Assembly (NCBI GenBank): GCA_902798975.1 | Contig: CADBYT010000025.1 | Span: 1-36,329 of the forward strand | DNA from: an uncultured Bacteroidia bacterium | Lineage (GTDB): Bacteria > Bacteroidota > Bacteroidia > Bacteroidales > UBA932 | Direction of reading: 5' to 3' | Length of the DNA: 36,329 nt | Shown here: positions 20,214 through 33,402 of the stretch, piece by piece | How the letters are laid out: each line of letters opens with the position of its first letter | Position numbering within the stretch: the first letter of the stretch is position 1 | Translations under genes and position numbers: made by a program | Notes under the pieces: generated by a model | The model's database searches: none | What the model was told of the DNA's origin: nothing | Seen by the model: only the letters and a program-made list of their open reading frames with translations

Positions 20214-20217
20214 CCTC

Positions 20218-20323
20218 CGGGCTTGCCGCGGCCTAGCGGGCGGCCGGAAATTATTTTTCGTGCAGTAGCCCGAAAAACCAATTTCCGCTCCGCCCTCCAC
20301 AACGCCGACGCGCGGCAAGCCCG
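20218..20323 (+). repeat. Structured dispersed repeat, copy 1 (upstream of rpsL)
   Basis: The element is closed by 13-base perfect arms (20218-20230 with 20311-20323: CGGGCTTGCCGCG / CGCGGCAAGCCCG). Inside are nested stems GGGCGG/CCGCCC (20238-20243, 20290-20295), GGAAATT/AATTTCC (20246-20252, 20280-20286) and TTTTTCG/CGAAAAA (20254-20260, 20271-20277) with loop TGCAGTAGCC. The core is almost identical in copy 2 at 33199-33303, but there the outer arms have a different sequence that is again complementary. Confidence 0.85.
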
Positions 20324-20355
20324 TCATTCGCCGGCTCGACCGGCGAATCTCTTTT
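20323..20355 (+). terminator. REP-like palindrome acting as terminator upstream of rpsL
   Basis: GTCATTCGCCGG, loop CTCGA, CCGGCGAATCTC then TTTT. The 9-pair stem (20326-20334 / 20340-20348) with a T tail would end transcripts from the OmpA-domain gene. It is a member of the GTCAT...ATCTC family. Confidence 0.7.
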
Positions 20356-20366
20356 GCAATCAATAT

Positions 20367-20397
20367 TTTGCGTTTTTCGGATTTTTCCGTATATTTG
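20367..20397 (+). promoter_or_regulatory. Promoter of the rpsL-rpsG-fusA-rpsJ operon
   Basis: TTTG (20367-20370), 19-base spacer, TATATTTG (20390-20397). It is nearly identical in design to the rplC promoter at 33424-33454. Confidence 0.85.
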
Positions 20398-20398
20398 C

Positions 20399-20425
20399 AG
20401 CCCCCAAAAACTGGGGGCTTTTTAT
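20399..20425 (+). promoter_or_regulatory. Start-of-transcript hairpin in the rpsL leader
   Basis: AGCCCCC (20399-20405) pairs with GGGGGCT (20413-20419), loop AAAAACT, followed by TTTTATAA. It starts at or within a few bases of the predicted transcription start, so it may be a 5' stabiliser or an attenuator. A similar hairpin lies at the same place in the rplC leader. Confidence 0.6.
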
Positions 20426-20448
20426 AACTTATTTATTAACAACTGTTT

Positions 20449-20820
20449 ATGCCAACTATTCAACAATTGGTTCGCAAAGGACGCGAGGTTATCGAAGTCA
20501 AGTCGAAATCTCGTGCGTTGGATGCTTGTCCTCAGAAGCGTGGCGTATGCTTGAGAGTCTATACGACGACCCCCAAGAAGCCGAACTCCGCTATGCGTAA
20601 GGTCGCGCGTGTACGTCTCACGAATTCTAAAGAGGTCAATGCCTACATTCCGGGCGAGGGACACAACCTGCAGGAGCACTCCATCGTGCTCGTGCGCGGC
20701 GGTCGTGTCAAGGACCTCCCCGGTGTACGTTACCACATCCTCCGCGGTGCTTTGGATACTGCCGGCGTGGAAGGACGGACCCAGTCCCGTTCGCTCTACG
20801 GCGCCAAGAGGCCGAAGTAA
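20449..20820 (+). CDS. rpsL: 30S ribosomal protein S12
   Basis: 123 residues, full length. The decoding-centre loop [17 protein letters not shown] and [13 protein letters not shown] are intact, with Lys at both positions whose change gives streptomycin resistance in other bacteria, so the wild-type form. First gene of the str-type operon. Confidence 0.97.
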
Positions 20821-20861
20821 TTGCCGAAGGATGGTTTAATTATTAATTTTTCACATTTACC

Positions 20862-21250
20862 ATGAGAAAAGCAAAGCCTAAGAAGAGGATTCTACTTCCT
20901 GATCCCAAGTTTCACGACACGCAGGTCACCCGCTTCGTGAACAACCTGATGTTGCAGGGGAAGAAGAGTATCGCGTATTCTATTTTTTACGATGCCATTG
21001 ATATGGTAGGCGAGAAGATGAAAGATTCTGACAAGGCTCCTCTGGATATTTGCGCCCTGAGCGGAAGGTTTCTCTCTCCATGAAGAATATGATATCCTTC
21101 GCCCGCAAACGCTCCGGCCGCTCGATGGCAGAAAAACTTTGTGCCGAAATCATCGCCGCCTACAACAGCGAGGGCGGCGCGTTCAAGCGGAAGGAAGACA
21201 TGCACAAGATGGCCGAGGCCAACAAGGCCTTCGCTCATTTCCGTTTCTAA
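20862..21250 (+). pseudogene. rpsG: 30S ribosomal protein S7, interrupted by an internal deletion
   Basis: The N-terminal 63 residues (MRKAKPKKRILLPDP to APLDI) are normal S7, then the frame is lost and stops at 21083. From 21053 another frame continues with [20 protein letters not shown] to the normal C-terminus [12 protein letters not shown] at 21250. The conserved stretch that should lie between (the ALENVTPQVEVKSRRVGGAT-type region that contacts 16S rRNA) is absent. The remnant is 389 nt; adding 88 nt gives 477, exactly a 158-residue S7 plus stop, the usual Bacteroidota length. S7 is essential, so a sequencing/assembly deletion is the most likely explanation. Confidence 0.9.
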
Positions 21251-21267
21251 TTGATTTAGTTCGTTAG

Positions 21268-23385
21268 ATGGCTAAAAGAGATCTTAAGTACACGAGGAAC
21301 ATCGGCATCATGGCGCACATCGATGCCGGCAAGACCACCACGTCCGAGCGCATCCTCTACTACACCGGCAAGACCCACAAGATCGGTGAGGTCCACGAAG
21401 GTGCAGCCACGATGGACTGGATGGTGCAGGAGCAGGAGCGTGGTATCACCATCACTTCCGCTGCCACCACCGCGTTCTGGCACTATGGCGGGGAGACGTA
21501 TCAGATCAACCTGATCGACACTCCGGGCCATGTGGACTTCACGGTGGAGGTCGAGCGTTCCCTCCGTGTCCTCGACGGTACGATAGCCACGTTCTGCGCC
21601 GTGGGGCGCGTTCAGCCCCAGTCCGAGACGGTTTGGCGCCAGGCAGATAAATATCGCGTGCCGAAGATTGCCTATGTGAACAAGATGGACCGCGTCGGTG
21701 CTGATTTCCTCGCCTGTGTCGAGGAGATCAAGACCAAGCTCGGTGCCACCGCCGTTCCGATCTGCCTCCCCATTGGTGCGGAGGAGAATTTCCAAGGAAT
21801 TGTTGACCTGATTGCCCGGAAGGCGATCGTCTACAAGCCTGGCGACGACCTGGTGAACTACGAGATCCAGGACGTTCCCGCCGACATGCAGGACGCTGTC
21901 GCCTTCTGGCACGACAAGCTGGTCGAATCCGCCGCCGAATGCGACGACGCCCTGATGGACAAGTACTTCGAGGCGCCCGAATCCATCACGGAGGAGGAGA
22001 TCATCGCCGCGCTGCGCAAGGGCACCATCGCCATGCAGATTGTTCCTGCATGCTGCGGTTCCTCGTTCAAGAACAAAGGCGTCCAGTTCCTGCTGGATGC
22101 CGTGATGCGTTACCTCCCGTCCCCGCTGGATATCGGCGCGACGAAGGCGACGAACCTCGCGAACGAGCAGGAGGTGCAACTGAAGCCCGAGGCCACCGAG
22201 CCGTTCTGCGGTCTTGTGTTCAAGATTGCGACCGACCCGTTCGTGGGACGCCTGGCGTATGTCCGTGTCTATTCCGGTCACCTGGATGCCGGTTCCTACG
22301 TGCTCAATTCCCGTTCGGGTAAGAAGGAGCGCGTGGCCCGTCTCTACCAGATGCACTCCAACCACCAGAACCCCATCGAGTTCGTGGAGGCCGGTGACAT
22401 CTGCGCGGCGGTCGGCTTCAAGGATCTGCGCACCGGCGACACGATCTGCGCGGAAAATCATCGTTATTCCCTGGAGTCCATGGAGTTCCCCGATCCCGTG
22501 ATCGGTATCGCCGTGGAGCCCAAGACGCAGAAAGACCTCGACAAGCTGGGCGTCGCGCTCGGCAAGCTCGCCGAGGAGGATCCTACCTTCACCGTCAAGT
22601 CTGACGCCGATACGGGCCAGACCGTCATCAGCGGTATGGGTGAGCTCCACCTCGACATCATCGTGGACCGTCTGCGCCGTGAGTTCGGCGTCGAGATCAA
22701 CCAGGGTGCTCCGCAGGTCAACTACAAAGAGGCGATCACCACCACCGTCCAGCATCGTGAAGTCTTCAAGAAGCAGACGGGCGGTCGCGGTAAATTTGCT
22801 GATATCATCGTCGAGATCGGTCCCGCCGACGAGGGCGTGCAGGGTCTCCAGTTCGACAACCAGGTCAAGGGCGGCAACGTGCCCAAGGAATTCGTGCCCT
22901 GCGTACAGAAGGGCTTCGAGTCCGCGATGGCGAACGGTGTCCTGGCCGGTTACGAGGTGCCTTCCCTGAAGGTCACCCTGCTGGACGGCTCCTTCCACCC
23001 GGTCGACTCCGACCAGCTCTCCTTCGAACTGGCCGCCCGCATGGCGTTCCGTCATGCCTGCCCCAAGTGCAAGCCTGTCATCATGGAGCCCATCATGAAC
23101 CTCGAGGTCGTGACCCCGGAGGACTACATGGGCGACATCGTGGGCGACCTCAACCGTCGCCGCGGACAGATTGTCGCGATGGACTCGACGACCAACGGCG
23201 CCCGCATCGTGAAGGCCTTCGTGCCTCTCTCCGAGCAGTTCGGCTACGTCACCGTGCTCCGCACCCTGTCTTCGGGCCGTGCCACCAGCACGATGTCGTT
23301 CGACCACTACGCCGAGGTCCCGGCCGCGATGGCCAAGGACATCGTGGAGAAGAGCGGTTATCACATCCCGTCTGACGACGAATAG
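21268..23385 (+). CDS. fusA: Elongation factor G
   Basis: 705 residues, the usual Bacteroidota length, apparently without gaps. G1 motif [10 protein letters not shown] is at 16-25, followed by the G2/effector region [12 protein letters not shown]3 DTPGHVDF and G4 NKMD. Domain IV includes RGQIVAMDS. GTPase that drives translocation on the ribosome. Placed between rpsG and rpsJ as in most str operons; its integrity contrasts with the broken rpsG just upstream. Confidence 0.97.
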
Positions 23386-23411
23386 TATTGAATTGAAAAA
23401 AGCATTTTGAT

Positions 23412-23717
23412 ATGAGCCAGAAAATTAGAATCAAACTCAAGTCTTTCGACCACATGCTCGTGGACAAGTCCGCGGCCAAGATTGTCGAGACTGTGAAGTC
23501 TACCGGCGCGAAGGTGAATGGTCCCATTCCCCTTCCGACCAACAAGAAGATCTTCACCGTCAACCGCTCGACCTTCGTGAACAAGAAGGCCCGCGAGCAG
23601 TTCGAGCTCGACTCCTACCGCCGGCTTCTCGATATCGAGGAATCCAACGCCAAGACGGTGGATGCCCTGATGAAACTTGAGCTCCCCTCTGGTGTGGAGG
23701 TCGAGATCAAGGTCTGA
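23412..23717 (+). CDS. rpsJ: 30S ribosomal protein S10
   Basis: 101 residues, complete; contains [20 protein letters not shown] and the C-terminus [11 protein letters not shown]. In most Bacteroidales rpsJ is followed directly by rplC; here a tRNA and about 9.8 kb of unrelated genes intervene. Confidence 0.97.
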
Positions 23718-23744
23718 GCCTGATCGGCACGCATTGAAACGAAC

Positions 23745-23777
23745 ATGCAGGACTGTCCCGGCAGGGCGGTCCTGCAT
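23745..23777 (+). terminator. Hairpin between rpsJ and the tRNA gene
   Basis: Nine-base perfect arms ATGCAGGAC and GTCCTGCAT separated by 15 bases. There is no T tail, so it may be a processing site or a weak/Rho-dependent end for the rpsL operon. Confidence 0.45.
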
Positions 23778-23779
23778 TC

Positions 23780-23854
23780 GGTCCCTTAGCTCAGTTGGTT
23801 AGCAGCAGCTGACTCATAATCAGCGGGTCGCAGGTTCAAGTCCTGCAGGGACCA
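23780..23854 (+). tRNA. tRNA with CAT anticodon (tRNA-Ile2 more likely than elongator tRNA-Met)
   Basis: Acceptor GGTCCCT/AGGGACC, anticodon arm GCTGA-CTCATAA-TCAGC with CAT at 23815-23817, T arm GCAGG-TTCAAGT-CCTGC, discriminator A. CCA is not encoded. CCCTTAGC, GGTCGC and TTCAAGTCC resemble the minor isoleucine tRNA that TilS converts to lysidine-34, but elongator Met cannot be excluded. The D stem GCTC pairs with GAGC only if one extra C (23803) is bulged, which is unusual. Confidence 0.9.
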
Positions 23855-23890
23855 CAAAAGGACGGCACATTGCCGTCCTTTTGTGGTCCC
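23848..23890 (+). terminator. 20-pair perfect inverted repeat overlapping the tRNA 3' end
   Basis: Arms 23848-23867 and 23871-23890 are perfect reverse complements around CAT. The left arm begins inside the tRNA acceptor (GGGACCA). The inner part with its TTTT tract resembles a terminator; the outer part mirrors the tRNA end. Confidence 0.8.
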
Positions 23891-24040
23891 AGTCGGCGCT
23901 GCGCGCCTCCATTATCAGCGGGGGGCGTTCCCCCCGCACCCCCTGCGTCGGCCTTCGGCCTCCGAATCTTCCGTTGTGCACATCCGATTCTTTCCTACCA
24001 CCGGCCAGGATTACCCAGCTAAATCTGCCAGGTTCCCTGC

Positions 24041-24067
24041 GTCATGCCCGACCTGATCGGATATCTC
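24041..24067 (+). repeat. Degenerate REP-like palindrome
   Basis: GTCATGCCCGA, loop CCTGA, TCGGATATCTC: family flanks retained, stem reduced to about four pairs. Confidence 0.5.
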
Positions 24068-24110
24068 CGTCGTTCGGGACCCCTTGACGGCATTCATTGG
24101 CTTCCCCCTT

Positions 24111-24144
24111 GTCATTCGCCGGTCGGAGCCGGCGAATCCGGTTT
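24111..24144 (+). repeat. REP-like palindrome with T tail
   Basis: ATTCGCCGG (24114-24122) and CCGGCGAAT (24129-24137) around a 6-base loop, then CCGGTTTTTT, which could terminate plus-strand transcription. Confidence 0.7.
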
Positions 24145-24282
24145 TTTGCTGTTTTTTGTAATTGATTGATTTTTAGTTTGTTCTGAAAGTAACCAGGTGC
24201 TATTTGACCCGGTTACTTTGGTATGCTGTTGATTGATAGATTATTGCGAAAAACGCTCGTTGCTGAGGAAAACGGTTTATTC

Positions 24283-24375
24283 CGACCGGGCAGCCGTGGG
24301 TGCGAGCGAGCCCACCAAAGAGCTCGCGAAGCGTCCCGCGGCAAGCGCCGAACCGCGTATCGCGAGGCGCTGGTG
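24283..24375 (-). repeat. ~95-base dispersed repeat, copy B
   Basis: Minus-strand copy of the element at 1835-1930 (starts GGCACCAGCGCCTCGCGATA; one mismatch in the first ~40 bases, then lower similarity). It lies 133 bases beyond the stop of the minus-strand fimbrillin-like gene, in the same relative orientation as copy A. Confidence 0.8.
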
Positions 24376-24445
24376 CCCCTGGATCGCGGAATTCCTTTTT
24401 TCTTGTGAGCTGGAACGGCCTGGGTATCAGTCAAGTGCTGTTTCG

Positions 24446-24470
24446 TACTCCCCCGAAAATCAAGGGAGTA
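24446..24470 (-). terminator. Weak hairpin 3' of the fimbrillin-like gene
   Basis: TACTCCC/GGGAGTA arms with an 11-base loop, 39 bases beyond the stop codon; no T tail on the minus strand. Confidence 0.35.
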
Positions 24471-24508
24471 TAAATCAATCATATACGGCTCACAAGCCAC
24501 ATGCTGGG

Positions 24509-27049
24509 TTACTCTTCGCTGACGGTGAACCAGTCGCCGTCGGCCGTGGAGACGTAGCCGGCGGGGACGTAGCTGGTGCCGGGGCCGTCGGCCTGGTTGT
24601 CGGCCGGATTGAACTTGTGGAAGCGGCCGCCGGTCACGGAGATGCGGGCGGTGGCGGTGTCCGGGCTGGTGCAGTTGGCGTCGCAGCAGTCGAGCAGGAG
24701 CGCGGCGCCGTCGGCCTCGAATTCGCCGCCGAGGATCCGGAGTTCGCCTGCATGGACGTAGCAGAACGCGTCGGTCTCGACATCGGAGGTCACCTTGCCG
24801 GAGCCGGTGAAGGTCAGTCTGGCGCCGTCCGAGAGGTGAATGTTGCTGTACAACGGCGCGTCCTCGGTGCCGAAGTTGTAGCGGCCCGCGAACTTGAGGT
24901 TGCGCCCGTTCAGGTCGATGGTGACGTCGTAGCCGGAGCCGAAGGTGAAGTAGTCCTTGCTGTAGAGGTCGAAGTTGAGCTTGATGTTCATCACGGTGTT
25001 CTTCTTGACCCAGTAGGCGTACTCGTAGGCGGTCTTGATGTCGGCGAATCCGTAGTAGAGGCCGTCCTCGCCGTCAAGGGTCAGGACGACGGTATCCCAC
25101 CTCGGGAGGGAGTGTTCGGGCTGGACGTAGTAGATGCTGTCGTAGTCGCCGGCGAGGATGGGGTTCCCCCAGCTCTGGCGTCCTTCGGCCGTCAGGAAGA
25201 CGTTGATGTCCTTCATCAGCTCGAAGACCTGGATTCTGCCGCCGTCGTAGAGCGTGAACACCTGGGCGTTGGAGCTGCTGGTCTCGATCCGGAAGATATA
25301 GACCCTGTAGTTGACCGTGCTCAGGATGCCCGCGTTCAGGGTGCGCCAGATGAGCGTCCTGATCGGACTCATGGTGTGTATGTAGTTGATGCCGCAGCCG
25401 GAGGAGCCGTATTTGCAGTCCACGGTGGCGCCTTCGGCGTAGACGTAGAGGTTGTTGACCGTGCCGAAGACCTCCACGCCGGCGCTGCCGTAGTCGAGGT
25501 TGAGCCTCTCGATGTAGTTGCTGCCGCTGTAGGTCATCTTGAGCATGTCGCCGGACGTGTGCTGCACGATGCCGGTCGCCTTGCACTTGATGAAGGTGAC
25601 GGCGCCGGCCGTGACTTCCAAATCGCCGACGGTCAGGAGCTTGGAACCGGTCTCCTTGCTGCCCAGGGTGAGGTCGTGTGTGGAGGTGATCATGTCGATC
25701 ATCTGGTCGGAGGAGGTGGCCGTGATGGTGGTGCCGGCTTCGGCGTTGTTGATCAGGAGGTCCACCCGGCCGCCGTCCATCACGACGTTGCCGCCGTTGA
25801 TGGTCAGGGTCTCGATGTGGACGCCGTGGCCGATCACCAGCGTGTTGGTGGCGGTAGTGGCGGAAATGGACTTATAGACGGTGGCCGTGCCGGATGACGC
25901 CAGGGTCACGGTGGTCTTGGGCAGGCTAAGGTCCATGTTCACATCGGTAGCGTCTGGCAGCGTAATGGTCAGGCTGTTCTGGGCTGCGGAAGACTCAGCC
26001 GCGCTACCATCTGTGATCACAAGTGGATGTTCATCGGGGGTGACGACAGGCTCCGCGAAAGTGAGGCCGATGGAGGCGTTGCCGCCGATGGCGGGAATGG
26101 CGATGGTGGCGTTGTCCTCGGTGGTGGAGATGCCGCCGGCTTCGGCGCTGACGACGTTGATCTCGACCTTGTCGCCGTCGGCGATGGCGCTGAGCCCGTC
26201 GCTGATGTCGGCGGGCGAGGAGGCCGTCAGCTCGACGTAGTTGATGCCGGCGCGGTAGAGCTTGCCGCGCGCGAACTCACGCGTAGCCCAGGACTTGACG
26301 TCCCGGAGCTCGCTGTCGACGCGCGCCTGGAGCTTGAGGTCATAGGTGCCGGCCGGGATCGGAAGGAAGACGGTGCGGTTCTCGGTGGCCGTGGTCGCAG
26401 GGAAGGTGACGCTGACGCTCTGGCTGCCGCCTTCGGAATAGGTGAGTTCCGGAAGGTCGGATTCCGAGAGGGTACCCGAGGTGAAGGTGCCGGACAGGTG
26501 CTGGGTCGAGGAAGAAAGGATGAGCTCCGTGGTCCCGGCAGGGAGGTTGTTGAAGCTGACCTTGATCACGGCCGCGAGGTGGTGGAAGGTGAGGGAAGAG
26601 CCCCAGGTGGCCCACATCGGGATGACGGTCTTGACGAGGTCTTCCTCATCGACGGCCTGGGTGTCGAACGCGATGCTCTCCGGGAGGGTCATCGTCAGCT
26701 TGGAGTCGGACAGGGCCGTGACGCTGGCGGCGGGGAAGGCGGCGAACGCCTCCTCGCCGGACGCCAGCTGGGGCTCTCCTATAAAGTAGAAGCGGGCGGT
26801 CTCGAGGCCGCTGTCGTCGGGACTGATGTTCCAGACCTCGCTCGCGGTGCCGCCGTCGTTGAAGACCTTGATGGCGTCGTCGTCTGTCCAGACGATGTTG
26901 ACGTCGTGGACCGCGGCGCGCGTGAGGCTGTTGCCGTCGATGGAGGCGGTGATGCTTTTCCGGATGTTTTCGGTGGTCTGTTCCTCTTTCGCGCATGCAC
27001 AAAACAACATGGACGCGGCCGCGAGGAGGGCGAATGCGTAATGTCTCAT
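24509..27049 (-). CDS. Large fimbrillin-like surface lipoprotein
   Basis: 846 residues. A lipoprotein signal ends in FCAC (Cys19). Residues ~30-280 look like the Bacteroidales fimbrillin-like (Mfa_like) domain: SLTRAAVHDVNIVWTDDDAI, then NISPDDSGLETARFYFIGEP and ITASIDGN. The remainder is a long run of short beta strands with repeated TLTINGGNVVMDGGRVDL-type units, consistent with a beta-helix or solenoid, and a Cys-containing stretch (LLLDCCDANC) near the C-terminus. Likely an exported adhesin or fimbrial component. The domain plan parallels the partial gene at the window start; both are followed by the same 95-base repeat. Very long open frames on the other strand are GC-driven shadows. Confidence 0.8.
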   Translation of the reverse strand: MRHYAFALLAAASMLFCACAKEEQTTENIRKSITASIDGNSLTRAAVHDVNIVWTDDDAIKVFNDGGTASEVWNISPDDSGLETARFYFIGEPQLASGEEAFAAFPAASVTALSDSKLTMTLPESIAFDTQAVDEEDLVKTVIPMWATWGSSLTFHHLAAVIKVSFNNLPAGTTELILSSSTQHLSGTFTSGTLSESDLPELTYSEGGSQSVSVTFPATTATENRTVFLPIPAGTYDLKLQARVDSELRDVKSWATREFARGKLYRAGINYVELTASSPADISDGLSAIADGDKVEINVVSAEAGGISTTEDNATIAIPAIGGNASIGLTFAEPVVTPDEHPLVITDGSAAESSAAQNSLTITLPDATDVNMDLSLPKTTVTLASSGTATVYKSISATTATNTLVIGHGVHIETLTINGGNVVMDGGRVDLLINNAEAGTTITATSSDQMIDMITSTHDLTLGSKETGSKLLTVGDLEVTAGAVTFIKCKATGIVQHTSGDMLKMTYSGSNYIERLNLDYGSAGVEVFGTVNNLYVYAEGATVDCKYGSSGCGINYIHTMSPIRTLIWRTLNAGILSTVNYRVYIFRIETSSSNAQVFTLYDGGRIQVFELMKDINVFLTAEGRQSWGNPILAGDYDSIYYVQPEHSLPRWDTVVLTLDGEDGLYYGFADIKTAYEYAYWVKKNTVMNIKLNFDLYSKDYFTFGSGYDVTIDLNGRNLKFAGRYNFGTEDAPLYSNIHLSDGARLTFTGSGKVTSDVETDAFCYVHAGELRILGGEFEADGAALLLDCCDANCTSPDTATARISVTGGRFHKFNPADNQADGPGTSYVPAGYVSTADGDWFTVSEE

Positions 27050-27063
27050 TTCTCGCGTGGGGT

Positions 27064-27189
27064 TTAGATGTCTTCAGGAATAAGGGGATCGCTGCCGCCG
27101 CTGCCGACCAGGATGATATTTTTTGTCTCCAGCCCGAACACGATAGTCACAGGCGGTAGATACGTTTCTTTTGCTTTTTCTTCTGTCAT
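27064..27189 (-). CDS. Short peptide ORF upstream of the fimbrillin-like gene
   Basis: 41 residues from ATG 27189 (MTEEKAKETYLPPVTIVFGL, then SGGSDPLIPEDI). Bacteroidales surface-protein loci often carry tiny ORFs of this style, with YxxPxVxVV near the start and a Gly/Ser/Asp-rich end, beside fimbrillin genes. The frame is open back to a GTG at 27261, giving 65 residues, but a TATCTTTG box at 27216-27223 favours the shorter form. It ends 14 bases before the adhesin start, so the two are probably co-transcribed. Function unknown. Confidence 0.5.
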   Translation of the reverse strand: MTEEKAKETYLPPVTIVFGLETKNIILVGSGGSDPLIPEDI

Positions 27190-27215
27190 GGGTCTGATAC
27201 CGTAGGAGATTTTGT

Positions 27216-27223
27216 CAAAGATA
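27216..27223 (-). promoter_or_regulatory. Candidate -7 element of the adhesin operon
   Basis: TATCTTTG on the minus strand, 26 bases upstream of the small ORF start; the -33 region is weak. Confidence 0.5.
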
Positions 27224-27347
27224 TGCAGAATTCCCCGAACAGTTGTCCTGTTTGCGTCCACAAGTTGTCATGCGAGAGTACAAAGATGCAGCAGTAATTG
27301 CGCGAAAGTGCGATTAATTTCGTGGATGTAAATTTTTCGTAACACTA

Positions 27348-27379
27348 TTGTATCATATTAGGTTTTTTTTCTACATTTG
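27348..27379 (+). promoter_or_regulatory. Promoter of the porin gene
   Basis: TTG (27348-27350), 21-base spacer, TACATTTG (27372-27379). The porin ATG begins only 7 bases after the -7 box, so the transcript would be leaderless or nearly so. Confidence 0.65.
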
Positions 27380-27386
27380 CGGAGCC

Positions 27387-28418
27387 ATGCGCCTAAAACT
27401 AATCCTACCAATGCTATTTATCACGGGTGTGTTGTCTGCACAAACTGTGAAGGATTGGTTTACAAAGCCCTCTCTGGCGGCCGCATCGCAGATTACCGAG
27501 AAGTATTCCGTACAGGACAATAAGTTCAAGACCATCCCGCTGGTCATGCTCAAGGCGTCGTTCGGGCAGAATACCCCGTTCACCGTCAACCTGCTTTACG
27601 ATATCCCCAACACGCAGTTCCTGACCGTCGAAGCCATCTGGCAGCCCATCCACCAGATTGGTATCCATATCGGCCTGCAGAAGATGCTCTTCCAGTACGA
27701 GACGACGTTTGCCCCGTATTCCTATGGTATTATCGGATATTCGCAGGCTTCTTCTTATCTGGGCGGCTATTCGAGTGACTACACCGGGATCAGCTCGCGC
27801 AGCCGTGACTGGGGCCTTGTGCTGCAGGGTTCTTTCTGGCCCGAAGAGGGCTTCTCGAAACTCTCTTATGCGGTCGGTGTCTTCAACGGCAACGGCTACA
27901 ACTTCAAGGACGACAACAAGGCCAAGGATATCCACGGCCGCCTGGTTTTCCAGCCCAACCGCAACCTGACGTTCACCCTGGGCGGCATGCTCGGCTACTA
28001 TACACCGTTGCATGAAGATGGCCCCGGACATCACCATTGGCACACGGACGAGGGCCTGGCCTGCCGGCGCCGCATCACGGCCGGCGTATGGTACGACAAT
28101 GGAAAGTTGTTCGTACGAAGCGAGAATGTCTACGGCAAGACGGACGGTATGATGAGCGACGGCGCCATGGTGCTGCTCGGCTACAAGTTCCTGTCGAGAC
28201 TGCAGCTGTCCTCCCGCGTGGACCGTTTCCAGCGGGACCTCACCGATCCGCTCAGCACCTCCACCAAGCTGGACTTCTGCTTCACGCACTACCTGACCAA
28301 AGACAGGACGATCTACTACGCCATCCAGTACGGCCACAACTTCTTCTCCGATTCGAACATCCCCGGCACTGACACCATCATGGTCTGCCTGAACCTCGCG
28401 CTGCTGCGCAAATTCTAA
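27387..28418 (+). CDS. Outer-membrane porin (phosphate-selective porin O/P-like)
   Basis: 343 residues from ATG 27387. A signal peptide (MRLKLILPMLFITGVLSA) is followed by amphipathic strands rich in aromatic residues and Gly, ending in Phe (LALLRKF), as expected for a 16-stranded barrel. FNGNGYNFKDDNKAKDIHGR and SSRVDRFQRD resemble the O/P-type porin family of Bacteroidota. An insert GPGHHHWHTDEG is His-rich and could be a metal-binding extracellular loop. Monocistronic by appearance; a separate promoter precedes cdaA. A start at 27348 would include the promoter and is rejected. Confidence 0.75.
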   Translation: MRLKLILPMLFITGVLSAQTVKDWFTKPSLAAASQITEKYSVQDNKFKTIPLVMLKASFGQNTPFTVNLLYDIPNTQFLTVEAIWQPIHQIGIHIGLQKMLFQYETTFAPYSYGIIGYSQASSYLGGYSSDYTGISSRSRDWGLVLQGSFWPEEGFSKLSYAVGVFNGNGYNFKDDNKAKDIHGRLVFQPNRNLTFTLGGMLGYYTPLHEDGPGHHHWHTDEGLACRRRITAGVWYDNGKLFVRSENVYGKTDGMMSDGAMVLLGYKFLSRLQLSSRVDRFQRDLTDPLSTSTKLDFCFTHYLTKDRTIYYAIQYGHNFFSDSNIPGTDTIMVCLNLALLRKF

Positions 28419-28454
28419 TTTTCAAATAGACTTTATTTCATCAGATTAATTATT

Positions 28455-28462
28455 TACCTTTG
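28455..28462 (+). promoter_or_regulatory. Candidate -7 element of the cdaA operon
   Basis: TACCTTTG matches TAnnTTTG and ends 19 bases before the cdaA ATG; -33 is AT-rich but not a clean TTTG. Confidence 0.6.
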
Positions 28463-28481
28463 TGTAGTAATTAGTCTGGTG

Positions 28482-29267
28482 ATGCTGGAGTTTTTGCATT
28501 TTTCCTGGATAGACATCCTTGACATCCTGATGGTGGCCGCGATCATCTTCCTGATATTCAGGTCGATACGCGGGACGACCGCCATCAATATCTTCATCGC
28601 CATCATCATTGTGCTCCTGGTCCGCGTCATTGCGGAAGCCGTCGGGATGAAGATGATGTCCTCCCTGCTCGGCACCCTCATCGACATGGGCGCCGTGGCG
28701 CTGGTGGTCATCTTCCAGCCCGAAGTGCGCCGCTTCCTGAATTCGCTGGGCCGCAAGGCCGAGACCACCCTGGAGCGGCAGAGTTTCCTGCAGCGGCTCG
28801 TCCCGTCCTGGCGCAGCCGGAAGGTGGACACCCACGCCATCAGCGAGATCACCGAAGCCTGCCGGGAGATGTCCGCGCAGAAGGAAGGCGCGCTCATCCT
28901 CATCCTGCACAAGAATACCCTGGAGGACATCATCGCCACGGGCGATACCGTGGACGCCGAGATCAGCCGCCGCCTGATCATGAATATCTTCTTCAAGAAT
29001 TCGCCCCTGCACGACGGCGCGATGATCATCGCGAACAACCGCATCGCCGCGGCCCGCTGCACCCTTCCCATCACGAACCGCACCGACCTGCCCGCCCGCT
29101 ACGGCATGCGCCACAAGGCCGCCCTCGGCATTTCCGAGCAGTGCGACGCCGACGTGATCGTCGTGAGCGAGGAGACGGGAGGCATCTCGCTTGCCCGCGG
29201 CGGCCAGCTCACACCCATCGAAACCATCAACACCCTGAATCTGCTGCTCGGAGAGACCCAGGAATGA
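28482..29267 (+). CDS. cdaA: Diadenylate cyclase CdaA (DacA)
   Basis: 261 residues. N-terminal membrane helices (about 12-85) are followed by the DisA_N catalytic domain with the two hallmark motifs DGA (LHDGAMI near 177) and RHR-like RHKAALG near 210. It joins two ATP to c-di-AMP, a second messenger for potassium and envelope homeostasis, at the inner membrane. A GTG at 28479 directly precedes the ATG. The stop overlaps the mutS2 start (ATGA). Usual neighbours such as folP or cdaR are not present here. Confidence 0.92.
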   Translation: MLEFLHFSWIDILDILMVAAIIFLIFRSIRGTTAINIFIAIIIVLLVRVIAEAVGMKMMSSLLGTLIDMGAVALVVIFQPEVRRFLNSLGRKAETTLERQSFLQRLVPSWRSRKVDTHAISEITEACREMSAQKEGALILILHKNTLEDIIATGDTVDAEISRRLIMNIFFKNSPLHDGAMIIANNRIAAARCTLPITNRTDLPARYGMRHKAALGISEQCDADVIVVSEETGGISLARGGQLTPIETINTLNLLLGETQE

Positions 29268-31729
29268 TCCACGAACGACTGGAAAGCAAACTCGGCTTCG
29301 ACAAAATCCGCAAGATGATCGCCGACCGCTGCCTGACGGATTACGCCGCCGGGCGGGTGGCCGAGGAGGCCTTTTCCACCGACACCGACATCATTCGCCG
29401 GAGGCTTGCCCTCGCCGACGAGATGCGCCTGATCCTGATGTTCGAGGAGAATTTCCCGACCACGGGCTACATCGACGCCATCCCCTTCCTGTCCGCGCTG
29501 GAGCGCGACGGATCCTGCATCGACGTGCTTTCGCTCGGCAAGCTCAAGACCGTCACGGACACCGTCCGCCGCGTCCTGCACTTCTTCGGCAGCGTCAAGG
29601 GCGGCATCTATCCGCAGCTGGAGAAACTCGTCTCGCCCATCCGCTTCTTCCCCGAAGTGCAGCGGCGCATCGAGAGCATCCTCGACAAATACGGCGACAT
29701 CAAGGATTCCGCTTCCGACCGGCTCTTCGAGATCCGGCGCGACCTCCGCAGCAAGGAGGCGGCCATCTCGAAACGCGCCGGCGCCATTCTGCGCAAGGCG
29801 CAGGAAGAGGGCGTCGTGGACGCCGACGCGGACGTGACCATCCGCGACGGCAAATACCTCATCCCCGTGGGCACCTCCGCCAAGCGCAAGCTCGCGGGCT
29901 TCGTACATGACGTGTCCGCCTCCGGCAAGACGGCCTTCATCGAACCGGCCGAGATCATCGAGCTGGAGAACGATATCGCCGAGCTCCATTTCGAAGAAGA
30001 GCGCGAGATCCGCAAGATTCTGCTGGAATTCACCGACTTCCTGCGGCCCTACCTGCCCGAACTGCTGGCCGGCGCCGCCTTCATCGGGGAGCTGGATTTC
30101 CTGATGGCGAAGGCGCAGACGGCGCTGGACCTCGTGGCCGGCATGCCTGTCATCTCGACCGACGGCAGCCTGTCGCTGCGCAAGGCGCGCCACCCGCTGC
30201 TGGAGAAGGCGCTCGTCCGCGAGGGGCGCAGCATCGTCCCGCTGACGGTCACCCTGACGGACAAGAAACGCATCCTGCTCATCTCCGGCCCCAACGCGGG
30301 CGGCAAGTCCGTCTGCCTCAAGACGGTCGGACTCCTCCAATACATGTTCCAGTGGGGCATGCTCATTCCCACTTCCGAGAGCTCCGAGCTCCCGGTCTTC
30401 GACCGCATAGCCGTGAGCATCGGCGACGACCAGAACCTCGAAGACGACCTCAGCACCTACAGTTCCTTCCTCGCGGACATGCGCGAGCTGCTCTCGGTGG
30501 CCGACGAGCGGACGCTGGTGCTCATCGACGAATTCGGCTCGGGCACGGAGCCGGCGGCCGGCGGCGCCATCGCCGAGGCCATCCTGGCCGAACTCGACCG
30601 CCGCGGCGTGCGGGCCGTGATCACCACACACTACACCAACCTCAAGCTCTACGCCGCAGGTGCCGACACGCACGTGGTCAACGGCGCCATGCTCTACGAC
30701 GCCGCGAAGATCGCCCCGATGTTCCAGCTGGAGATCGGCCTGCCCGGCAATTCCTTTGCCTTCGAGCTGGCGCGCAAGATGCGCCTGCCGGAGAGCATCG
30801 TCAAGGACGCGGAGACGCGCGCCGGCGAGGAATTCGTGGGGATTGAGCGCAACCTGCGCAAGATCGCCCGCAACCGCCGGGCCCTGGACGAGAAGCTCCA
30901 GAAGATCAAGCATACCGACAAGGCCCTCGAGGGTATCACCGAGCGCTACGAGAAGGAGTTGGAGGATATCCAGAAGCAGAAGAAGGCCATCCTCGAGGAG
31001 GCCCGCAAAGAGGCGGAGCAGATCGTCAAGGGGGCAGGCAAGCAGGTGGAGAAGACCATCCGCGACATCAAGGAGGCCCAGGCCGGCAAAGAGCAGACCA
31101 AGGCCGCGCGCCAGGAGCTTCAGGGCTTCCTCGGCGCCCTGCAGGAGCGCAAATCCAAGGAGAAGAAGACGCGCGACGCCTACATCGACCGCAAACTCGA
31201 GCAGCTCAAGAAGCGCAAGAAGGGCGGCGCGGCCGCCGGGGACGCCGAGCCTGCGAAGAGCGAGCCGCTCAAGGTGGGCGAGAAGGTCCGCATCAAGGAG
31301 AACGGCCTCGTGGGCGAGGTGGCCAAGATCAGCAGCAAATCCGTGACCGTGATCGTGGGCAACATCACCAGCACCATGGCGCCGGCGCGCGTGGAGCGCA
31401 TTTCTTCGAATGAATTCCGCGAAGCGTCCCGTAAGGTGTTCGCGCCCGTGCAGCAGCGGGTGGATAGCGCCATCACGGAGCGCAAGCTCTCCTTCAAGCC
31501 CGAATTGGATATCCGCGGCGAGCGCCTCTCCGACGCGCTGGACATTGTCACGCATTACATCGACGATGCCGTCATGCTCGGCATCGGCTCCGTGCGCATC
31601 ATCCACGGCAAGGGGACCGGCGTGCTGCGCGAGGAAATACAGAAATACCTCCGGACCATCCCGGGGCTGACCGTCAGCGACGAGGACGTGCGCAACGGCG
31701 GCACCGGCGTAACCGTGGTCAAACTATGA
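29264..31729 (+). CDS. mutS2: MutS2 family ATPase/endonuclease
   Basis: 821 residues from the ATG that overlaps the cdaA stop. There is no mismatch-recognition domain; the core and clamp helices are followed by the MutS ATPase with Walker A GPNAGGKS near 342 and Walker B LVLIDEFGSGTEP near 417, then a long Lys/Glu-rich coiled coil (about 510-640). A C-terminal Smr domain carries LDIRGER near 747 and HGKGTG. In other bacteria MutS2 suppresses recombination or splits collided ribosomes; which applies here cannot be read from sequence. The frame is open further upstream, but that part overlaps cdaA out of frame. Confidence 0.92.
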   Translation: MIHERLESKLGFDKIRKMIADRCLTDYAAGRVAEEAFSTDTDIIRRRLALADEMRLILMFEENFPTTGYIDAIPFLSALERDGSCIDVLSLGKLKTVTDTVRRVLHFFGSVKGGIYPQLEKLVSPIRFFPEVQRRIESILDKYGDIKDSASDRLFEIRRDLRSKEAAISKRAGAILRKAQEEGVVDADADVTIRDGKYLIPVGTSAKRKLAGFVHDVSASGKTAFIEPAEIIELENDIAELHFEEEREIRKILLEFTDFLRPYLPELLAGAAFIGELDFLMAKAQTALDLVAGMPVISTDGSLSLRKARHPLLEKALVREGRSIVPLTVTLTDKKRILLISGPNAGGKSVCLKTVGLLQYMFQWGMLIPTSESSELPVFDRIAVSIGDDQNLEDDLSTYSSFLADMRELLSVADERTLVLIDEFGSGTEPAAGGAIAEAILAELDRRGVRAVITTHYTNLKLYAAGADTHVVNGAMLYDAAKIAPMFQLEIGLPGNSFAFELARKMRLPESIVKDAETRAGEEFVGIERNLRKIARNRRALDEKLQKIKHTDKALEGITERYEKELEDIQKQKKAILEEARKEAEQIVKGAGKQVEKTIRDIKEAQAGKEQTKAARQELQGFLGALQERKSKEKKTRDAYIDRKLEQLKKRKKGGAAAGDAEPAKSEPLKVGEKVRIKENGLVGEVAKISSKSVTVIVGNITSTMAPARVERISSNEFREASRKVFAPVQQRVDSAITERKLSFKPELDIRGERLSDALDIVTHYIDDAVMLGIGSVRIIHGKGTGVLREEIQKYLRTIPGLTVSDEDVRNGGTGVTVVKL

Positions 31730-32115
31730 GAACGGACAGGGCCGTCGTCGGCCGCAGGGGAGAAGAGGAAGCCAGCCGCTACCTCACCCGGCTCGGCCAC
31801 AGGGTCCTCGCGCGCAACTGGCGCGGAGGGCACCTCGAGCTGGATATCATCACCCTGACGGGCAGCGAGCTCCACTTTGTGGAAGTCAAGAGCCGCGTGG
31901 CGCCCGTGATGGCTGAGCCCCAGCGCAACGTGGGCCGCGACAAGCAGCGGCGCATGGTCGCCGCCGCGCAGGCCTTCCTGCACGGCGAGGCCCGCAAGGA
32001 CCTGCCCGCCGACCTGGAAGTCTTCTTCGACGTGATGTCGGTCGTCTTCTACGGTACGGGCGAAGAATTTGACATTGAGTACTATCCTAAAGCTTTTACG
32101 CCACTGTATGCTTAA
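31726..32115 (+). CDS. yraN: YraN-family (UPF0102) putative endonuclease
   Basis: 129 residues. The restriction-endonuclease-like core is visible: GRRGEEEASRYL, then RNWRGGHLELDIITL and LHFVEVKSR, giving the E...D...ExK pattern. The family is widespread and resembles Holliday-junction resolvases, but its role is unresolved. Start overlaps the mutS2 stop; its last 8 bases overlap the manC start, so translation is coupled along this row. Confidence 0.9.
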   Translation: MRTDRAVVGRRGEEEASRYLTRLGHRVLARNWRGGHLELDIITLTGSELHFVEVKSRVAPVMAEPQRNVGRDKQRRMVAAAQAFLHGEARKDLPADLEVFFDVMSVVFYGTGEEFDIEYYPKAFTPLYA

Positions 32116-33199
32116 TAACCATCATTACTGTATAATCATGGCCGGCGGGATCGGATCCCGCTTCTGGCCGATCAGCCGGGCTGACCAGCCCAAGCAGTTC
32201 CTCGATTTCAGCATCCTGGGCCGTTCTTTCTTGCGCCGTACCTACGACCGCATGAAAGTGGTCATTCCCGAGGAGAACATCATCGTGGTGAGTCTGGAGC
32301 GCTACCGCGACCAGGTGATGACGCAGCTGCCCGAGCTGCCTGCGTGCAATCTCCTGCTTGAGCCCTACAACCGCAACACGGCGCCCTGTATCGCTTTTGC
32401 GACCTACGTGATCCTGCAGCGCGACCCGGAGGCCGTCACCGTGGTGACGCCTTCCGACCACGCCATTGCGCGGCACGAAGTGTTCAACAGGACGCTGGAG
32501 GCGGCGCTCGACTATGCCGCAGGGTCCGACGCGCTCATCACCCTGGGTGTCGTGCCCACGCGCGCGGATTCCAATTTCGGTTATATCCAGATGGCCGGGA
32601 AGTCCGAGGACGGCCGCCCCGTCAAGATCAAGACCTTCACCGAGAAGCCGGACGCCGAGCTGGCGCGCGTGTTCGTGGATACGCACGAGTTCCTCTGGAA
32701 TTCCGGTATTTTCGTCTGGCGTGCGGATTCCATTCGCAGGGAGCTGGAGAAATATGCTCCCGAGATCACCGACCTCTGGGCCGGCTGGCAGGAGGCGCTC
32801 GGTTCCAGCGGGCAGCAGGCCTTCGTGGACCGCATCTATACGGACATGCCACGCATCTCCATCGACTACGCCGTGATGGAGAAGACGGACAACGCCTGGG
32901 TGTATCCAGCGGAGTTCCGCTGGGCGGATATCGGAAACTGGGAGTCTCTCTACGAGTATCTGGCCTATCATGACGACCAGGGCAACGCGCTCAACCGCAC
33001 CAGCCGCCGCCTGCTCGTGGACAGTGCCGACAATATCGTCTATTCTACCCGCGACGACAAGTTGCTGGCGATCCGGGGCATGGAGAATTTCATCATCATC
33101 GACACCGAAGACGTTCTGATGATCTGTCCGCGCGACGAGCGGAAGCTCAAGGACTTCCTTTCCCGCCTCGCCATGCCCGAGTACGAAGAATATCGGTAG
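32108..33199 (+). CDS. manC: Mannose-1-phosphate guanylyltransferase (GDP)
   Basis: 363 residues from ATG 32108. The nucleotidyltransferase signature MAGGIGSRFWPISR is followed by QPKQF, then LLEPYNRNTAPCI and FTEKPD, and SIDYAVMEK, all typical of GDP-mannose pyrophosphorylases. No C-terminal isomerase domain, so monofunctional. Makes GDP-mannose for glycans, capsule or LPS. An upstream in-frame ATG at 32069 lies inside yraN and would add residues before the family N-terminus. Confidence 0.92.
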   Translation: MLNNHHYCIIMAGGIGSRFWPISRADQPKQFLDFSILGRSFLRRTYDRMKVVIPEENIIVVSLERYRDQVMTQLPELPACNLLLEPYNRNTAPCIAFATYVILQRDPEAVTVVTPSDHAIARHEVFNRTLEAALDYAAGSDALITLGVVPTRADSNFGYIQMAGKSEDGRPVKIKTFTEKPDAELARVFVDTHEFLWNSGIFVWRADSIRRELEKYAPEITDLWAGWQEALGSSGQQAFVDRIYTDMPRISIDYAVMEKTDNAWVYPAEFRWADIGNWESLYEYLAYHDDQGNALNRTSRRLLVDSADNIVYSTRDDKLLAIRGMENFIIIDTEDVLMICPRDERKLKDFLSRLAMPEYEEYR

Positions 33200-33303
33200 G
33201 TCGGGTGCCCCCTCGCGGGCGGCCGGAAATTATTTTTCGTGCAGTAGCGCGAAAAACCAATTTCCGCTCCGCCCTCCACGACGCCAACCCGCTGCACCCG
33301 ACC
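33199..33303 (+). repeat. Structured dispersed repeat, copy 2 (upstream of rplC)
   Basis: Outer arms GGTCGGGTGC (33199-33208) and GCACCCGACC (33294-33303) differ from those of copy 1 but again pair perfectly. The core (about 33215-33283) matches copy 1 with only a few differences and keeps all three inner stems and the TGCAGTAGC loop. It starts at the last base of the manC stop codon. Confidence 0.85.
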
Positions 33304-33318
33304 GTATCCAATCCATCC

Positions 33319-33354
33319 GTCATTCGCCGGCTCCGACCGGCGAATCTCTTTTTT
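33319..33354 (+). terminator. REP-like palindrome with T tail downstream of manC
   Basis: ATTCGCCGG (33322-33330) and CCGGCGAAT (33337-33345) around CTCCGA, then CTCTTTTTT. Same design and position as the element at 20323. Confidence 0.75.
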
Positions 33355-33402
33355 CCGCTCCGCCCTCCACGACGCTGACGCGCGGCAAGCCGGCGGCCGG
33401 AA
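33355..33402 (+). repeat. Fragment of the structured repeat
   Basis: 33355-33391 repeats the right part of copy 1 (CCGCTCCGCCCTCCAC onward, to CGCGGCAAGCC), followed at 33392 by GGCGGCCGGAA, a piece of the left core: a scrambled or recombined partial copy. Confidence 0.7.

Follow-up and report, generated by a model that had tools for sequence, protein, structure and literature searches.

Among the closest described systems are the REPINs, in which two REPs stand in inverted orientation and each has a short hairpin and an end tag of its own. Palindromic mobile DNA that resides in frame in conserved genes has been described, as far as the sections cited here go, above all from Rickettsia and Wolbachia (PMC2229807, PMC3733652), and further species are named for short REPs (PMC3733652). 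RPE-1 of Rickettsia is a long stem-loop of about 105-146 bp, found both in intergenic regions and fused in frame in conserved genes (PMC2229807, PMC3733652). YPAL/RU-2 of Yersinia, a palindromic mobile element of 168 bp, lies at or next to dyad symmetry, makes target duplications and is known from filled and empty sites (PMC2229807, in the section cited). CGTC REPs are shorter: a CGTC tag is followed by an 8-9 bp stem that starts with AT and encloses a loop of 4-5 nt. They have members in Bacteroidetes and occur inside genes, and the cited section of PMC3733652 gives them no dedicated transposase. According to the section cited of PMC6006769, TnpAY1 genes of subclass 2.6 in Bacteroidetes have atypical secondary structures at their flanks, and copies of these structures lie at other places of the genome. 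Coding palindromes are also on record from Nematomorpha (PMC6649704, cited in part), and template switching is a mutation mechanism whose reverse-complement copies create or repair perfect stems (PMC8794818, cited in part).

The element described here occurs twice in the window, by which we mean the whole stretch of 36,329 nucleotides analysed (contig CADBYT010000025.1 of an uncultured Bacteroidia bacterium); all its features are given on the forward strand. Repeat comparison and folds place copy 1 with its arms at 20218..20323 (covariance-model match 20216-20323) and copy 2 at 33199..33303 (match 33198-33302), and the two have an 86-nt stretch in common at 93% identity. The conserved core hairpin of copy 1 (20238..20295), supported by folds and by covariation over 80 copies, comprises three stems (20238-20243/20290-20295, 20245-20252/20280-20287 and 20254-20260/20271-20277) with a variable tip between, and is followed, on the right side only, by a tail that is unpaired and conserved in the alignment (TCCACAACGC, 20296..20305). 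Outer arms enclose the whole: CGGGCTTGCCGCG (20218..20230) pairs with CGCGGCAAGCCCG (20311..20323) over 13 bp in copy 1, and GGTCGGGTGC (33199..33208) with GCACCCGACC (33294..33303) over 10 bp in copy 2. Both copies fold into nested core stems plus outer arm with DNA or RNA parameters and on either strand (z-scores -4.9 to -7.0; 0 of 200 shuffles equally stable in each of the eight folds). Copy 1 starts 4 nt past a TAG stop codon, and the first base of copy 2 is the last base of its TAG. Downstream of each copy stands a hairpin of the form CGTC-ATTCGCCGG-loop-CCGGCGAAT-CTC, and the genes after these hairpins are, as we take it from their sequences, rpsL (copy 1) and rplC (copy 2). The hairpin 3' of copy 1 (20322..20351) overlaps the arm end with its CG; that of copy 2 lies at 33318..33348, and both agree or nearly agree with the definition of CGTC REPs (PMC3733652, section cited), having loops of 5-6 nt. 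A rearranged partial copy at 33352..33391 is 95% identical to the right half of copy 1 and carries a right arm of the CTTGC class (see below). In the relatives G200 and G323 a full copy, oppositely oriented, lies near this partial copy, which makes the spot of copy 2 a hotspot.

The initial annotation of this locus is thus borne out in its description: a near-identical core of three nested stems, outer arms that differ between the copies (13 versus 10 pairs) and yet are self-complementary in each, a start no more than 5 bases from a stop codon, a REP-like hairpin downstream of both copies, and a scrambled fragment at 33355-33402, now recognised as the partial copy. CGTC-type REP hairpins of the window are found at 20326-20348, 33322-33345, 24114-24137 and 2158-2181; such stems at the same spot differ between species and stay paired, as at the L002 site with CGCCGG in the window's own genome (G000) and CCGGG in G200 and G323. 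A presumed rpsJ-like gene (23412-23717) lies, together with what we take to be fusA and rpsL, some 10 kb before the presumed rplC, in the region from 33515 onward, and the usual S10 operon order is therefore split.

The family is dispersed: at least 42 matches to a 76-nt core query were found in the window's own genome, the fragment at 33352 included, and a covariance-model search, a check of the kind that the annotation had proposed, located the element in 29 of 151 sampled genomes of the genus. The own genome comprises 2.09 Mb in 39 contigs with a completeness given as 71%; since 50 candidates were listed and 40 scored at first look, more copies may exist. Only two of the about 42 sites lie before ribosomal-protein operons. 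A scan of genome contigs returned five stretches, all from Bacteroidales or Bacteroidia MAGs, with titles that include yak rumen and buffalo omasum, and it says little on host range because most copies have five A's at a place where its pattern had four. A single scan of viral contigs, made with an exact pattern, gave no match that would indicate carriage by phages, and among the literature matches listed no such element is described from Bacteroidales.

Copies placed side by side yield a consensus of a core (CGGGCGGCCGGAAATTATTTTTCG-tip-CGAAAAACCAATTTCCGCTCCGCCC), the tail TCCACRACGC, which is unpaired and confined to one side, conserved short spacers and the outer arms. The analysis of arms and context rests on 89 distinct copies from 10 genomes, in which orthologous copies of different species are counted apart (L313 has the same sequence as G108:C106), and the alignment on 80 of these, with a core length of 64-66 and near-duplicates dropped. 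In the own genome, the copies L026, L035-L038, L040 and L041 represent a variant whose left stem contains about 45 extra nt (CAATGACCGTGGGGCGTTCCCCCCGGACCCCCTGCGTCACTTCG or a similar sequence) as a nested repeat, for example in G000:C13 near 19819. A second, larger repeat family (..GTGCCTGCGTCTCGGC.TCCATCCTCGCTTCCCGC..) occupies an ABC-F gene linker (L254 in G000, L252, L253, L251) and atpG (site 2 in L206, L207, L211) in several relatives.

The conserved part is an imperfect palindrome with three nested, covarying stems. Over the 80 aligned copies, 85.1% of the cells are paired compared to 76.9% after shuffling, and double changes number 263 compared to 121, with 0 of 500 shuffles coming up to the observed level; pairing falls to 52-60% when partners are slid by one column. 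The core helix is paired in 95.2% of cells, the arm helix at a fixed offset in 62.7%. Among 1,680 core cells 1,634 are Watson-Crick pairs, and the remainder consists of 17 A.C, 8 G.T and 20 other mismatches and one gap. If the core acted as an RNA of this strand, G.U should be preferred to A.C; the core pairing therefore looks like a property of the DNA, and it is compatible with template switching as well as with selection on a DNA hairpin.

A large part of the family does carry private, locus-specific complementary arms: they are frequent, and they are not universal. Perfect arms of at least 6 bp are present in 58 of 89 copies, compared to 12.9% in a swap control that combines left flanks with the right flanks of other loci, and 28 of the 58 armed copies share one arm offset. 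Two arm classes recur, CTTGC in 22 copies and the stem of a REP (CGCCGG) in 10; the 26 single arms pair over 9.2 bp on average with their own partner and over 3.4 bp when swapped. In a further set from other genomes (40 loci, one of them without an oriented core), arms of at least 7 bp occur in 13 of 39 copies where 3.9 are expected; it includes a subfamily with GTCTTCCAGAC in the left end, whose arms measure 6 to 15 bp with 4 bp common to the subfamily. The perfect arm is shorter than 6 bp in 31 of the 89 copies, some of which look decayed or hold one mismatch, and in the divergent genome G028 16 of 17 copies have arms below 7 bp. The annotation had named two observations that would speak against it: copies with non-complementary arms do occur, as these figures show, and arms formed by chance from adjacent sequence are contradicted by the swapped flanks.

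Arms can differ completely between copies with the same core, as in L001 and L003, where the core is identical over 69 nt. At one site, G065 and G119 hold copies in opposite orientation with unrelated perfect arms of 15 bp and 12 bp, where relatives have a short spacer. In trpC, the arms of a full copy in G150 and of an internally deleted copy in its sister species G097 read GGCCCCGTT/AACGGGGCC and GGCCCCGCTTC/GAAGCGGGGCC, a compensated C.G to T.A difference. Two further arrangements were seen at related loci: in L194 (G080) and L195 (G200) a tandem repeat of left arm and spacer (AGGCTTGCCATCCCC and relatives) adjoins the copy upstream of a RAYT gene, and in L102 (G150), at a site orthologous to that of the L026 copy in metH, coding GATCAGCGTGCACCGCG is followed, across a 2-nt loop, by its perfect inverted copy without the element core.

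Copies are found after stop codons, and others are inserted in frame in genes identified by profiles, the frames staying open through the copies. The hosts are trpC (IGPS), atpG (F1 ATP synthase gamma, two copies), metH (MetH, three), rmlD (RmlD, two), an MBOAT gene and an ABC-F gene; a further open-frame copy lies near the start of a putative porin. As in RPE-1, a long palindrome is thus fused in frame in conserved genes. The encoded insert is mostly of the type NYFS...AEKPIS...STTP, and would be read as a peptide of the kind NYFSDKFAEKPISAPPSTTP. An overall open-frame count of 31 of 89 copies is no evidence, because spurious open frames of considerable length abound in DNA this rich in G+C. 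By visual judgement, 8 of 10 species have a palindromic insert of some kind at one spot in atpG: the own genome has this element, seven others have REP-like hairpins, and no insert was seen in G058 and G065.

The positions in the window, where both copies stand between a stop codon and a ribosomal-protein gene, and the strong folds could indicate a structured RNA of untranslated regions, such as a ribosomal-protein leader, a terminator or a 3'-end element, and 60 of the 89 copies lie no more than 60 nt from the stop of a frame of at least 100 codons, a count without random control. This explanation, which covers two of the candidates of the initial annotation, is largely contradicted and very improbable: the element occupies about 42 sites, some of them in frame inside genes, it is absent from the rpsL site in 17 of 18 relatives' loci, and its core mismatches display no excess of G.T. 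No Rfam family reaches its gathering score in the window, with the sole exception of a tRNA at 23780-23854. TTTT, as in the T-run that follows the stem of an intrinsic terminator, is present within 15 nt outside the right arm in 2 of 58 armed copies. Neither an untranslated-region motif nor a 3'-end or terminator element finds support.

Filled and empty sites bear on the origin of the arms. At the rpsL site G200 possesses an orthologous copy that shares the arms along 9 bp, G323 shows no more than a REP hairpin, and the element was not seen in the other 16 of the 18 relatives' loci. Nine sites with perfect arms were compared with 23 empty alleles of relatives, and in none of these alleles is either arm complete. 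The alleles were chosen visually for being clean, L003, L004, L005, L009 and L032 being among the sites excluded, and the count leaves aside L008 as well as L014 and L022, whose arms are imperfect and whose four empty alleles likewise have neither arm. The longest arm piece shared with an empty allele is 8 of 11 nt, in the right arm of L137 against the allele of G150, where the left arm shares 4; elsewhere it is 3-7 nt. Shared pieces at L022 (7 nt), L137 (8 nt) and L356 (7 nt) exceed about 98-99% of shuffled arms, uncorrected for twelve sites, and in a comparison for a single native arm L137 is suggestive, L018 and trpC ambiguous. Since the 23 alleles hold neither complete arm, the old target at these sites did not include the arms, which were brought by the element or made at insertion.

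Three origins of the arms can be weighed on this basis. If the arms were the target, the core would have been inserted at the tip of pre-existing hairpins, REPs or similar palindromes, perhaps in a two-step history in which the hairpin came first and the core may have followed later. The REP-type stems among the armed copies point this way, as do the common element-free hairpins of the CGCCGG kind (27 of 394 perfect hairpins in the loci examined), the loci L038 and L041, which look like simple insertions in a REP loop, another hairpin within a REP loop in G108, and the insertion of YPAL at dyad symmetry (PMC2229807, section cited). We consider it rather unlikely, because hairpins of the CTTGC class, the commonest among the arms, rarely stand without the element (5 of 394), the 23 empty alleles contain no such hairpin, and the rpsL site of G323 has only the nearby REP. 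Alternatively, insertion or replication might give rise to new arms in that one flank is copied in inverted form, through template switching or in the course of transposition, an origin that we regard as possible at a tentative level. It would explain the unrelated single arms on near-identical cores (L001/L003), the opposite copies of G065 and G119, the one-sided sharing at L137 and the inverted coding copy without core in G150, and template switching can create and repair stems (PMC8794818, section cited); against it, not even one arm is native at most empty sites, L137 apart, the spacers between core and arms stay unpaired, and the two recurrent arm classes suggest that arms are carried.

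Carriage of the arms with the element, their sequence drifting while template switching or selection on the hairpin maintains the pairing, deserves the same cautious standing. It agrees with the number of CTTGC copies, with the arms of L014 and L118, which belong to a recurrent class and are absent from the empty alleles, with the compensated change in trpC, and with core double changes that involve few G.T steps; against it stand the wholly different arms on identical or near-identical cores, a change faster than drift alone would give. The empty sites allow arms made at insertion without showing them.

A mover of such an element would be expected among REP-associated tyrosine transposases (RAYT). 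Matches to the Y1_Tnp profile occur in all seven genomes tried, at 14 loci, above the curated cut-off in five genomes. A copy lies about 0.3 kb or less away from four of the 14 loci, on one side only, and none is found by the other ten; no REPtron layout is therefore seen. Protein searches of the own genome gave five RAYT-like matches, two of them at 144 and 249 nt from a copy and the other three 10 to 45 kb from the nearest. The two copy-adjacent proteins match the NCBIfam model of REP-associated tyrosine transposases with E values of 2.5e-10 and 1.3e-9, under its 80-bit cut-off, and as single proteins stay just below the cut-off of Pfam Y1_Tnp. Genomes with a class A RAYT (at least 70% identity) contain the element in five of six cases, G008 being the carrier without it, compared to 24 of 145 others (p 0.001, uncorrected for kinship). 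Among the 151 genomes the element is present in 9 of 13 with a class A RAYT defined more loosely (p 5e-5) and in 21 of 65 with a class B RAYT, a membership assigned by hand from the protein-match list (p 4e-4), both likewise uncorrected for kinship. This co-occurrence speaks for mobilisation by RAYT, although the link is weak.

Taken together, the family probably represents non-autonomous miniature palindromic mobile elements of about 110 nt, similar to REPINs and RPE, which would most likely be moved as a single-stranded DNA hairpin by RAYT, a Y1 HUH enzyme. The mobile REPIN/MITE-like candidate of the annotation is supported by dispersal, filled and empty sites, in-frame insertions and RAYT genes in the genomes. 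What the transposase recognises would probably be the conserved imperfect hairpin together with the unpaired tail on one side; insertion would take place beside stop codons or, in frame, in protein linkers that tolerate it, with outer arms carried along or made at insertion. No target duplication stands out: abutting repeats of at least 3 nt occur in 3 of 58 armed copies (1.6 expected) and of at least 4 nt in 2 of 58 (0.4 expected). These counts do not support a classical MITE with target-site duplication.

The element is RPE-1-like in location and REPIN-like in size and company, and neither definition is fully matched. With RPE-1 and the coding palindromes of Wolbachia it shares size, stem-loop and in-frame gene insertion; it differs from RPE-1 in belonging to another phylum and in its locus-specific arms, the likeness being one of description, not of sequence. 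Like REPINs with RAYT, it is hairpin-forming miniature mobile DNA of about 100 nt in genomes that contain RAYT genes, but its halves are not REPs with own hairpin and tag: minimum-energy folds pair the left half with the right half, the core ends without a tag, and RAYT adjacency is patchy (the four of 14 Y1_Tnp loci, one-sided, and two of five RAYT-like genes in the own genome). The window hairpins, and likewise the arms in 10 of 58 armed copies, fit CGTC REPs (CGTC tag, 9-bp stem with AT at its start, loop of 5-6 nt), whereas the element is a palindrome of greater length and has no CGTC tag itself. YPAL/RU-2, compared by description, is likewise palindromic and mobile with filled and empty sites, but it measures 168 bp, makes target duplications and has other hosts. 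The atypical structures of subclass 2.6, likened by description and not sequence, are perhaps of this element's kind, as far as the cited section of their source describes them. Stems made by template switching resemble the arms as perfect inverted copies, but represent a mutation mechanism and not an element family.

A comparable, longer in-frame element is now found in a genus of Bacteroidales that includes rumen species, inside ATP synthase gamma, TrpC and MetH, and candidate transposases are present in the same genomes. Conceivably, though we suggest it with reserve, each insertion is accompanied by the synthesis of a new pair of perfectly complementary arms, through single-strand transposition or through the element itself; every copy, also in housekeeping genes, would thereby receive a private hairpin. 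With complementary private arms, the origin of paired stems, whether by selection, template switching or transposition, becomes a question for empty sites at the level of strains.
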